Below are positions 51,182 to 55,579 of a DNA stretch of 64,000 nt, piece after piece. The notes beneath the pieces were generated by a model that was not told the origin of the DNA, made no database searches, and worked only from the letters and a program-made list of their open reading frames with translations. The first letter of the stretch is position 1. Each line of letters begins with the position of its first letter. This DNA comes from Cobetia marina (lineage in GTDB: Bacteria > Pseudomonadota > Gammaproteobacteria > Pseudomonadales > Halomonadaceae), in the NCBI RefSeq assembly GCF_001720485.1, contig NZ_CP017114.1, positions 3,348,001-3,412,000 of the forward strand, in the 5' to 3' direction. A program made the position numbers and the translations under genes.

Positions 51182-52009
51182 CTACTGTGGAAAGAACAGC
51201 CCACGCAAGCCTTCACCCGGGTCTTCGAAGCGCATGAAGGCCTCGCCCACCAGGAAGCCGTGGACACCACGGTCACGCATCTTCGCCACATTTTCACGGG
51301 TGTGGATACCTGATTCGGTCACGACGCGCACTCCCGATGGCATGTCGGTCAACAGGTCCAGCGTCGTCTCCAGTGAGGTCTCGAAGCTACGCAGATCACG
51401 GTTGTTGATTCCGACCAGCTCGATCCCCAGCGCCAGCGCACGCTTGAGCTCCTCGCCATCATGCACCTCGACCAGCACATCCATGCCCAGCTCTCGCGCC
51501 TGATCATGCAGAGCACTCAGGCGTGCATCGTCCAGTGCCGCGACGATCAGCAGAATGCAGTCGGCACCGATGGCACGCGCCTCGAGCACCTGATAGGGAT
51601 GAATGATGAAGTCCTTGCGGATCACCGGGATCGAGACGGCGTCGCGCGCCTCGATCATGAAGTCCTCATGCCCCTGGAAGAAGTCGGCATCGGTCAGCAC
51701 CGACAGGCAGGCAGCGCCGGCCTGCTCATATGCCACGGCGATCTCGGCCGGCGCGAAGTCTTCACGGATCACGCCCTTGGAGGGAGAGGCCTTCTTCACC
51801 TCGGCGATGATGGCCGGCTCACCGCGATCGATACGAGATGTCAGCGCCTTGATGAAACCACGCGGCGCACTCTGCTTCTCGATCAGCGTCTGAAGATCCG
51901 CCTCGCCCACCGCCGCACTGCGCTCGGCGATCTCCTCTTCCTTGCGCGCCAGAATTCTGGCCAGGATGGTCGGCAGCGCCTTGTCAGTCGTCTGTTGCTC
52001 GGTACTCAT
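51182..52009 (-). CDS. trpC: Indole-3-glycerol phosphate synthase
   Basis: A 275-residue TIM-barrel enzyme of tryptophan synthesis, not fused to TrpF. Motifs: [46 protein letters not shown] and [17 protein letters not shown] precedes the ATG. Its start overlaps the trpD stop by one base. It is last in trpGDC, with trpF, trpB and trpA elsewhere. Confidence 0.97.
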
Positions 52010-53055
52010 CAGCGGGTCGCTCCTTCATCATTGACCTGGGCGTAGACACGGGTGAAATCGGCAAGCTCCTTCATCTTCTCGAAGGGCAGCTTGCTGGCCT
52101 GCACGTCCTCGGCAATATTGACGCCTTCCTTGAGACTGTCTGCGATACCGGCCACGTACAGGGCCGCGCCGGCATTGAGCGCCACGATATCGCTGGCCGG
52201 CCCCTCGTCTCCGCGCAGCGCCTGCTGCACCAGCTTCAAACTGTCGGCAGACGTCGCGACTGCCAGCGAATCCAGCGACTGGCGCGCGATACCGAAGTCT
52301 TCCGGCGCGATGCGGTATTCGCGGATCTCGCCATCCTTGAGCTCATTGACCAAGGTCGGCGCCGCCAGCGAGATCTCGTCCAGACCGTCATCGCTGTGCA
52401 CCACCAGCACATGCTCGGCCCCGAGACGCTTGAGCACCTCGGCCATCAGCGGCACCAGCGCGGGGTCATACACGCCGAGCACCTGACGGGTAGCGCCAGC
52501 CGGATTGGTCAGCGGACCCAGGATGTTGAACATGGTGCGCACCCCCATCTCGCGACGCGGACCGATCACGTGCTTCATGGCAGCATGATGATTGGGCGCG
52601 AACATGAAGCCGACCCCGATATCATCGATGCAGCGCGCGACCTGTTCGGCATTCAGCGCCAGATGGATGCCAGCCGATTCGAGCAGATCCGCACTGCCGG
52701 ACGACGAGGAGACACTGCGGTTGCCATGCTTGGCCACATGCCCACCGGCGGCGGCCACGACGAAACTTGCGGCAGTGGACACATTGAACAGATTGGCCCC
52801 ATCTCCGCCGGTACCCACGATGTCCACCGCATCGGTGGCGCGCACCGTGACTCGCGTCATCAATTCACGCATCACCTGCGCGGCAGCGGCCAGCTCATCG
52901 ACAGTCTCGCCTTTCATCGACAGGGCCATCAACAGCGCCCCTATCTGCGCCTGGGTTGCCTCGCCGGTCATGATGGCCGTCATGACCGCATGAGTGTCGT
53001 CGTAGCTCAGGTGCTGGCGGCGCATCACGGCGCCAATCGCCTCACGCATCTGCAT
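52009..53055 (-). CDS. trpD: Anthranilate phosphoribosyltransferase
   Basis: A 348-residue enzyme joining anthranilate and PRPP. The PRPP-binding motif is [40 protein letters not shown] follows. A Met two codons in is an alternative start. It is 75 bases after trpG and overlaps trpC, so the three genes form one transcript. Confidence 0.97.
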
Positions 53056-53130: not shown

Positions 53131-53766
53131 TCAAGCGGCTTTCTCGACCTCGCCGCGACGCAGGAAGTTAGCCAGAAGCTCATGACCCTGCAATGTGAGG
53201 ATCGACTCGGGGTGGAACTGCACACCCTCGACATCAAGCTCGCGATGGCGCAGCCCCATGATCAGCTGCGGGGTGACATCGTCATCTCCCGTCCAGCTGG
53301 TGACGACAAGACACTCAGGCAGGCTGTCGCGCTCGACGACCAGCGAGTGATAACGCGTGACTTCCAGCGGCTCGGCCAACGCCCTGAAGACGCCACTGTT
53401 GTCGTGATGGACGGCGGAGGTCTTGCCATGCATCACCTGAGGGGCACGCACCACCTTGCCACCGTAGACCTGACCGATGGCCTGATGGCCGAGACAGACC
53501 CCCAGGATCGGCAGCTTGCCGGCAAAGTGACGGATGACGTCCAGGGTAATCCCGGCCTCATTGGGCGTGCACGGCCCTGGCCCCAACACCAGATGCGTGG
53601 CACCGAGCACCTCGATCTGCTCGAGCGTGATGGCGTCATTGCGCACGGTCAGCACTTCGGCCCCAAGCTCGCTCAGATACTGGACGATGTTGTAGGTGAA
53701 GCTGTCAAAGTTGTCGATCATCAGCACGCGTGGCGCGCTGGCGTCCTGCGAAGTGAATGCCTGCAT
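53131..53766 (-). CDS. trpG: Anthranilate synthase component II (glutamine amidotransferase)
   Basis: A 211-residue subunit supplying ammonia to TrpE. It contains [17 protein letters not shown], the oxyanion strand [12 protein letters not shown], the nucleophile [11 protein letters not shown] and the FHPESI His-Glu pair. The chosen ATG adds 15 residues before the usual [11 protein letters not shown] start (Met at codon 16); either is possible. It is the first gene behind the trpL attenuator. It may also serve PabB. Confidence 0.94.
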
Positions 53767-53852: not shown

Positions 53853-53881
53853 ACAAAAATGCCGCCCTGGTCGGCGGCATT
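53853..53881 (-). terminator. trpGDC attenuator terminator
   Basis: On the minus strand AATGCCGCC-GACCAG-GGCGGCATT followed by T5. It lies between the leader peptide and trpG. A competing antiterminator can form because a leader segment GGGGCGGC (53920-53927) pairs with the terminator's 5' arm GCCGCC; GCTCC (53935-53939), next to the Trp codons, can in turn pair with GGGGC (53923-53927). Confidence 0.85.
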
Positions 53882-53931
53882 CTTCTGGTCGTACGTCCTC
53901 GAACTTCAGACATGCGAAAGCCGCCCCGTTG

Positions 53932-53982
53932 TCAGGAGCGCCACCACTGCTGGTTGAGGTCGTGCGGGTTACGTAGCGTCAT
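53932..53982 (-). CDS. trpL: trp leader peptide with tandem tryptophans
   Basis: A 16-codon frame, MTLRNPHDLNQQWWRS, ends in TGA. Two adjacent Trp codons (53941-53946) lie just before segment 1 of the leader RNA. Stalling there when charged tRNA-Trp is scarce would free the antiterminator and allow trpGDC transcription. The design matches known trp attenuators; a trpGDC attenuator separate from trpE is known in Pseudomonas. No strong ribosome site is visible before the ATG. Confidence 0.87.
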   Translation of the reverse strand: MTLRNPHDLNQQWWRS

Positions 53983-53988
53983 GGGTCA

Positions 53989-54017
53989 ATAGTGCGTTGA
54001 GCCGTTGGGAGTGTCAA
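53989..54017 (-). promoter_or_regulatory. Promoter of trpL-trpGDC
   Basis: On the minus strand a perfect TTGACA (54012-54017), 17 bases, then CACTAT (53989-53994). It leaves only a few bases before the leader ATG, so the true start may differ or the -10 may be different. Confidence 0.45.
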
Positions 54018-54088
54018 TCACATGCGACATTGCAGGGAGCGGCCCCGCAAGGCCGCCGGGCCACTCCCTGTCGTGCATGGCGCGGCAT

Positions 54089-55579
54089 TCAGTCCAGGTT
54101 GTCCAGGCCACGCTCCGCCATCGCCACGGCACGGAACAGCGCACGCCCCTTGTTGAGGGTCTCGTCCCACTCGGACTGCGGGACGGAATCCGCGACCACC
54201 CCGGCACCGGCCTGGACGTGAAGCACCTGATCCTTGAGCACGGCGGTACGGATCGCGATCGCGGTATCCATGTTGCCGTGCCAGGAGAGATAGCCCACCG
54301 CCCCCGAGTAGATGCCACGCTTGACCGGCTCCAGCTCGTCGATGATCTCCATGGCGCGAATCTTCGGCGCGCCGGACAGCGTGCCCGCCGGGAAGGTGGC
54401 ACGCAGCACGTCCATCGGCCCCAGCCCTTCCTTCAGCTTGCCGGTGACGTTGGAGACGATGTGCATGACGTGGGAGTAGCGTTCCACCACCATCTGGTCC
54501 GTCACCTTGACGCTACCGGTCTGACTGATGCGCCCGGCATCGTTGCGGCCCAGGTCGATCAGCATCAGGTGCTCGGCGATTTCCTTGGGGTCCGAGAGCA
54601 GATCCTTCTCGAGCGCCAGATCCTCCTCTTCGGTGGCACCGCGTACGCGCGTCCCGGCAATGGGACGCACCGCGACTTCACCATCCTCGAGACGCGAGAG
54701 AATCTCGGGCGACGAGCCGATGACGTGATGATCATCCAGATTGAAGAAGAACATGTACGGCGAGGGATTCAGACTGCGCAGCGCACGATAGAGATCCAAC
54801 GGCGCGGCACGGTAGGGAATCGACATGCGCTGGGACGGCACGCACTGCATGACATCACCGGCCAGCACGTATTCCTTGATCTTCTCGACCGCGCCCTTGA
54901 AGCCTTCCTCGGTGAAGCCGGAAGTGAAATCGGTCTCCTGGACCGGATCACCTCCGGTACCGGGGCTGACGGTATTCAGCGTGGCGCTGCGCAGCTGGAT
55001 CTCGAGGCGCTCGAGACGCTCGCAGGCTGCCTCGAAGGCATTGGGTGTCTCGGGGTCGGCATGGGTCAGCAACGTCAGGCGGCCAGAGAGATTGTCGAAG
55101 ATCACCAGCTCGTCGGCCACCATCAACAGGATATCCGGCACGCCCAGCGGGTCCGGCTTCTCGACGCCCCGCAGGCGCGGTTCGATGTAGCGCACGGTGT
55201 CATAGCCGAAGTAGCCGACCAGCCCGCCATTGAAGCGCGGTGCGCCCTCGATGACCGGCACCCGGAAGCGCGTCTGGAACTGCTCGATCCACTCGAGCGG
55301 ATCTTCCACCTCGGTCATGCCGGTCTGCTCGCCATTGACCAGGTGCGCCACGACCTGACCACGCACCTCGATGCGCTCACGGCACGGCAAGCCGATGATC
55401 GAATAGCGCCCCCACTTCTCGCCGCCCTGCACGGACTCCAGCAGGAAGGTCCACGGCATGTCAGCCAGTTTGAGATAGGTGGACAGCGGTGTGTCGAGGT
55501 CCGCCAGCACGTCACGAGTAACGGGAATGCGGTTGTAGCCTGCCTCGGCCAGTTCAGCGAAGTGTTGTGGGGTCATCAT
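54089..55579 (-). CDS. trpE: Anthranilate synthase component I
   Basis: A 496-residue chorismate-utilising enzyme that makes anthranilate with TrpG; feedback inhibited by tryptophan. Near the N-terminus is the [17 protein letters not shown] segment, which holds the Trp-binding LLES-type motif. The catalytic core has [45 protein letters not shown] and [23 protein letters not shown] precedes the ATG. It is 104 bases after gph, with no Trp-rich leader of its own visible. Confidence 0.96.

Follow-up and report, generated by a model that had tools for sequence, protein, structure and literature searches.

We find that the trpGDC genes of Cobetia marina are very probably preceded by a ribosome-mediated transcription attenuator with its own promoter. 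It lies on the minus strand, in the 322-nt interval between trpE and trpG, within the 64,000-nt stretch of DNA that was analyzed (the window). The leader RNA is predicted from its promoter to start at its own start codon, that is, to be leaderless. The features are as follows:

54012 to 54017, minus strand: −35 element TTGACA, read in the sequence.
53989 to 53994, minus strand: −10 element CACTAT, with a spacer of 17 nt to TTGACA and of 6 nt to the ATG.
53982, minus strand: predicted transcription start, the A of the leader AUG, placed from the −10 position.
53932 to 53982, minus strand: leader ORF MTLRNPHDLNQQWWRS and its stop (ATG at 53982, TGA at 53934-53932).
53941 to 53946, minus strand: tandem Trp codons 13 and 14, predicted as the stall site from sequence and conservation.
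53935 to 53940, minus strand: segment 1, CGCUCC (Arg-Ser codons), 5' arm of the 1:2 hairpin; the fold prolongs this arm upstream.
53920 to 53927, minus strand: segment 2, GGGGCGGC, partner of segment 1 or segment 3 by sequence, fold, and alignment.
53873 to 53880, minus strand: segment 3, AUGCCGCC, antiterminator partner and 5' arm of the terminator.
53855 to 53866, minus strand: segment 4, GGCGGCAU, with a U5 tract; 3' arm and end of the terminator.
53131 to 53766, minus strand: trpG (PF00117), the first gene under the predicted control.
52009 to 53055, minus strand: a gene that we take to be trpD from its place, sequence, and family likeness.
51182 to 52009, minus strand: a gene that we take to be trpC on the same grounds.
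54089 to 55579, minus strand: trpE (PF00425, PF04715), the upstream gene, outside the attenuator.

A preliminary description of this DNA had proposed that the locus holds all parts of attenuation by tryptophan supply. These parts are present in the window and recur in 16 of 24 sampled genera of the family, and switching between their structures is predicted. The 16-residue frame with Trp13 and Trp14 spans 51 nt including its stop, TTGACA lies just upstream at 54017-54012, and a terminator with T5 follows the frame (53880-53855). The terminator arms (53880-53873 and 53866-53859) enclose a loop, with T5 at 53859-53855, and the GGGGCGGC segment able to pair with the 5' arm is found at 53927-53920. 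The −10 element at 53994-53989 had not been named. A short ORF with Trp codons thus stands before a trp gene, and an intrinsic terminator stands behind the ORF, as attenuators have them.

Intergenic terminators are common, and the locus could be read as a plain terminator behind trpE beside a chance ORF, with no regulation at all. We give this reading almost no credence: ORF, terminator, and antiterminator never occurred together in 5000 dinucleotide shuffles of the trpE-trpG interval (singly, the short tandem-Trp ORF arose 40 times and the terminator twice), the Trp codons and promoter geometry are conserved, and the 1:2 hairpin covaries. Ten short tandem-Trp ORFs occur in the 64 kb, eight on the plus and two on the minus strand, and the full set of parts accompanies only that at 53982. 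The pattern TTGACA-N16-18-CANNNT-N6-7-ATG has one match in the 4.18-Mb genome, which is the leader site, while its reversed control has none. The leader RNA also folds well relative to shuffles, 2 of 200 being as good or better (z = −2.53).

General-purpose tools recovered little of the locus. A generic promoter scan gave no site at the leader, to which it is blind because CACTAT agrees with TATAAT at only three of six positions, and a generic terminator scan gave the attenuator hairpin on the plus strand only. No Rfam cis-regulatory family reached its threshold anywhere in the window. The Trp_leader model RF00513 aligned over 53952-53852, from its first to its last position, at 25.5 bits; since its gathering score is 41 bits, we class the leader not as a member of that family but only as working alike.

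We searched trpG relatives from named genomes (80 loci, mainly Halomonas, Vreelandella, Chromohalobacter, Salinicola, and Marinobacter) and found a tandem-Trp frame before trpG in 26 of them, in addition to the window. This search could not return leaders with a single Trp codon because TGGTGG was demanded; these were recovered later by a covariance model. Two of the 26 loci (L048, 2106-2166, and L061, 2099-2159) have other tandem-Trp frames (MARTASVNVAQQWWRFQ and MTRTASINVAQWWRFQ), about 400 nt before trpG. Their records are named Vreelandella stevensii and Alcanivorax sp., and the frame is common to both; with no promoter or terminator match, no T-run, and scores of 22.2 and 20.0 bits, they were not counted as leaders. 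The remaining 24 loci and the window have TTGACA (TTGACG in one) and a −10 element that is followed, after 6 or 7 nt, by an in-frame ATG. The covariance model was built from 22 of these 25 sequences, leaving out L034 and L040, in which segment 2 was misaligned, and L065.

Across 250 genomes from the window's family, the model matched 144 at E 0.001, the recovery of its training members being by construction. In the window's own genome, it gave two further weak matches (33.5 and 29.8 bits). We examined 113 candidates among the matches listed, down to about 36 bits, and dropped five (G057b, G030b, G080, G493b, and G115b) that lack the Trp ORF and the promoter. Among the matches listed at about 36 bits or more, there are thus 108 homologous leaders, in 106 of the 250 genomes and 16 of the 24 genera; trpG lies downstream within the fetched stretch in 104. 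A search of the order matched 67 of 293 genomes at E 0.001. The best match outside the family (41.5 bits) has no Trp ORF, resembles a simple terminator downstream of some other gene, and was rejected.

All 108 leaders have a promoter by our rule (at least five of six matches to TTGACA, a spacer of 16 to 18 nt, and NANNNT). The −35 element is mostly TTGACA, with a few TTGACG, and the −10 element is CACTAT or another CANNNT. Leader frames run from 15 to 25 codons, with 16 codons in 74 of 107. The tandem Trp codons, which the preliminary description had expected to be conserved, are kept as pairs in 80 leaders and extended to three in a row in 16; the expectation does not hold for 11 leaders with one Trp codon and for one that has lost its ATG. 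Arg directly follows the last Trp in 96 of 107 leaders, which may be explained by the Arg codon belonging to segment 1.

The alignments show compensatory changes that back the 1:2 hairpin. Across the 22 sequences, 99.2% of its cells are paired, with changes on both sides at three of six pairs, and the 1:2 and 3:4 helices together have 11 both-side-change cells against 3.6 in shuffles. A larger alignment of 90 distinct sequences, which was fitted to the structure and is hence biased toward it, has 36 such cells against 10.0 in shuffles; the pairs with both-side changes number four, matched or exceeded in 48 of 500 shuffles. The 2:3 pairing is near-invariant (98.5 and 99.1% paired) and has no covariation in either alignment, so that covariation argues neither for nor against it. 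Such constancy would follow from the double role of each segment: 2 has to pair with both 1 and 3, and 3 with 4 as well.

To follow switching, we folded 107 leaders without segment 4, masking the ribosome and varying its footprint edge. When the A site holds the last Trp codon, upstream pairing of segment 3 is predicted in 106 of 107. When it holds the stop codon, the count is 66, 35, 22, 12, and 8 of 107 at edges of 13, 14, 15, 16, and 17 nt, respectively, and with no ribosome, it is 31. For the window's leader, segment 3 stays free for the terminator in the ribosome-free fold; with the ribosome at the stop, it is paired upstream up to an edge of 15 nt and flips between 15 and 16 nt. In silico, ribosome position thus sets a mutually exclusive antiterminator. 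When segment 4 is included, all three window folds end as the terminator, the stalled state too. As the minimum-energy fold is the terminator even then, antitermination must be kinetic, which is usual for attenuators. The structures originally proposed for the leader therefore stand in part: the 1:2 hairpin covaries and switching with ribosome position is predicted, while 2:3 lacks covariation and the off-state depends on the footprint.

The predicted course of events is as follows. Polymerase would start at the leader AUG or within one base of it. When charged tRNA-Trp is scarce, the ribosome would stall at codons 13 and 14 and disrupt the 1:2 hairpin; the freed GGGGCGGC would pair with segment 3 before segment 4 is synthesized, and polymerase would run on into trpGDC. 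When tryptophan is plentiful, a ribosome at the UGA would cover most of segment 2, and the 3:4 terminator would halt transcription near 53855. With no ribosome, 1:2 and 3:4 would both form and transcription would stop too. The classical mechanism fits, with the modeled off-state resting on the usual footprint. Attenuation by tryptophan supply is thus well supported in silico, and trpGDC is probably switched off at plentiful tryptophan.

The promoter geometry is the basis for a leaderless start. In 107 of 108 leaders, exactly 6 nt (52 leaders) or 7 nt (55 leaders) separate the −10 element from the ATG, which places +1 at the A of the AUG or the adjoining base. From this spacing, we infer the start site and an RNA that opens with its start codon, which would be translated without a Shine-Dalgarno sequence. 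No Shine-Dalgarno sequence is seen by eye before the window's leader ATG, and a Shine-Dalgarno–like tetramer occurs in the 13 nt ending 3 nt before the ATG in only 1 of 107 leaders. As a rough comparison, since stretch lengths differ, the 45 nt preceding the trpG core contain such a tetramer in 89 loci. In 106 of 107 leaders, the −10 element opens with C instead of the consensus T.

The attenuator could also be real without being leaderless, if transcription started farther upstream or read through from trpE and so gave a longer RNA. The position of trpE directly upstream on the same strand, and the weakness of CACTAT as a −10 element, missed by the generic scan, would suit such an RNA. Against it are the 6- to 7-nt spacing across 16 genera, the near absence of Shine-Dalgarno–like tetramers, and unrelated genes between trpE and the leader in relatives (nine intervals). 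We therefore consider the longer RNA improbable and prefer the leaderless start. Nine relatives with a long trpE-trpG gap have various unrelated frames between trpE and the leader or trpG; thus, leader and trpGDC look like a unit. In the window, no leader is seen by eye in the approximately 105 nt upstream of trpE. Directly behind trpE, at 54033-54070, lies a GC-rich inverted repeat (CAGGGAG...CTCCCTG) without a T-run, which may end or protect the trpE transcript.

Of 41 family genomes, 38, including the window's own, give no match to TrpR (PF01371). Two of the other three are over the cut-off, both of the genus coded g10, in which 29 of 41 genomes have TrpR. With the leader model, the 12 loci named Vreelandella reach 22.2 bits at most. 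If g10 is assumed to be Vreelandella, leader and TrpR tend toward a reciprocal pattern, a tendency only. Given the absence of a TrpR match from its own genome, the window's organism may control trpGDC in response to tryptophan mainly through attenuation.

Attenuation before trpGDC is known in kind. The tandem Trp codons and hairpin-terminator layout of RF00513 are as in the window. In the Escherichia coli Trp_leader system, trpE follows the leader and TrpR acts as well, whereas in the window trpG follows and there is no TrpR match. Four loci that we take as Pseudomonas-like (L246 to L248 and, similarly, L220) have a GTG-started frame (...RWRWRA or ...RWRWHA) before trpG and, unlike the window's leader, no TTGACA-CANNNT-ATG geometry by eye. 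In Pseudomonas putida, attenuation of trpE and trpGDC has been reported (Olekhnovich and Gussin 2001, J Bacteriol 183:3256, as cited in PMC8297930), so that, judging by the title, target and class of control are like those of the window's leader. For P. aeruginosa trpGDC, the available part of PMC8297930 gives premature 3' ends near a possible GTG uORF.

The nearest likeness in the start itself is from Sinorhizobium meliloti, where, according to the available part of PMC7298713, the 5' end of the leader RNA is the trpL ATG and attenuation operates without transcriptional repression. Like the predicted window leader, trpL combines a leaderless start with attenuation; it differs in belonging to an Alphaproteobacterium, in preceding trpE(G), and in having described trans roles (same source). 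By analogy, the released leader peptide or the short terminated RNA in our family might act in trans besides its cis role, the predicted leaderless start and the size being like those of S. meliloti peTrpL and rnTrpL (PMC7298713, available part). However, the peptide stretch before the Trp codons varies strongly among genera, and the features that are kept fit cis pairing, which makes an added trans role quite unlikely. Among the papers that our search covered, none describes a trp leader from Halomonas or related bacteria, or a trp attenuator borne by a phage; this is weak evidence of absence, since the search covered few subscription papers. PMC2965389 gave no trp passage for the terms used.

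For four of the 108 leaders, no trpG was found downstream: those of G014 and G003 and both of G524 (loci L254 and L255, L252 and L253, and L360, L361, and L362, respectively; the IMG/VR loci are L257 and L258). In G003 and G014, a tyrosine integrase gene comes after roughly the first eight trpG codons; the element in G003 also contains genes of tail, virion, endolysin, and repressor-like type. The host leader of G003 (MNMNPTLRLNQWWWRL) is stranded, cut from trpG, and some 45 kb on, the far end of the element has a different leader (MTTAPIASIKSWRLH), with the same promoter geometry and attenuator, before trpG. In G524, an integrase contig starts where the host-leader contig stops (95-nt overlap), and its end has its own leader (MTLFRPTQRIRQWWPF) and a trpG start. 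The G014 host leader is stranded too, and the far end there has none.

Virus records contain the same arrangement. IMG/VR UViG_2849289992_000002 is the G003 element, its integrase being 100% identical and its leader identical. UViG_2788500074_000003 has another leader-bearing, trpG-facing end (MTSISMTIAKQWRLVI), with a stop within the trpG frame by eye; a 66% identical integrase is on another record numbered as UViG_2788500074_000003. The trpG-facing end of L258 has its own predicted leaderless trp leader and attenuator, and L256, a third IMG/VR pattern match, has no leader and no trpG. A related integrase (E 1e-80) occurs in 18 of the 250 family genomes and lies behind a trpG start in nine of these (seven by pattern and two by eye). 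The far ends of these nine elements have a leader in G003 and G524 and none in G014, G015, G081, G058, G141, and G143; that of G101 was not found. Most trpG-inserted elements seen are thus without a leader. The P. aeruginosa R-pyocin cluster, located between trpE and trpG (PMC7344871), is likewise phage-related and near trpG; in the available part of that source, it is not described as inside trpG or with a trp attenuator, whereas the elements here lie within trpG codons.

Beside the integrases, we find a tandem motif like CTGGGTAAGATCCTGGGTAAC (TGGGTAA type), and the far ends have a similar motif before trpG. With a matrix built from seven integrase-side copies and a cut-off at the 99.9% shuffle level, such repeats, which resemble integrase arm sites, are detected between terminator and trpG in 33 of 108 leader-trpG spacers, including those of the phage-borne leaders of G003 and G524. 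The repeat lies 81 to 84 nt from the trpG core in 28 of the 33 and 93 nt in five, across seven genera. It is not confined to loci with leaders: of the 53 named trpG loci that lacked one in the tandem-Trp search, 11 have it too. It is absent from all six genomes of the window's genus, where the leader may thus be ancestral. In Marinobacter algicola (L076), an arm-like repeat lies 83 nt before the trpG core, so elements that insert into trpG may extend beyond the family.

On a quick trpG tree (beyond the core, 105 rows), where the G003 and G014 left-junction rows are element DNA and stand apart on long branches, ten single-Trp leaders of one type require at least four changes, and leaders of this type are more clustered than under shuffled labels. 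The G003 phage end is one of the ten. Repeats at a fixed distance beside about a third of the leaders, together with the scattered single-Trp type, suggest repeated past swaps. We thus read the arm-like repeats as relics of att sites and the leaders as swapped by phages. As a rival reading, the repeats could be an older host feature copied by phages; their fixed spacing and likeness to the integrase side speak against this without excluding it. Single-Trp leaders of one type could, likewise, have arisen more than once. On balance, we lean toward the family's trp attenuator being a partly mobile cassette, carried by some temperate phages that insert into trpG. Insertion in the first trpG codons would sever the gene from its promoter, and the phage end before trpG would bring a complete leaderless promoter, leader peptide, and attenuator. 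Host tryptophan control would then outlive the insertion, with its parts exchanged.

As a kind, trpGDC attenuation is already known; the family's predicted leaderless form and the copies of it on phages make this case a variant. The analysis provides a covariance model and a test set for what we predict to be a family-wide leaderless trp attenuator of Gammaproteobacteria, found for the most part where the genome gives no TrpR match, in which leader translation would start on a bare 5' AUG. The phage-borne copies would mean that a virus keeps the amino acid–sensing switch of its host when inserting into a biosynthetic gene. They would thus constitute regulatory repair of the insertion site, beyond repair of the coding sequence.
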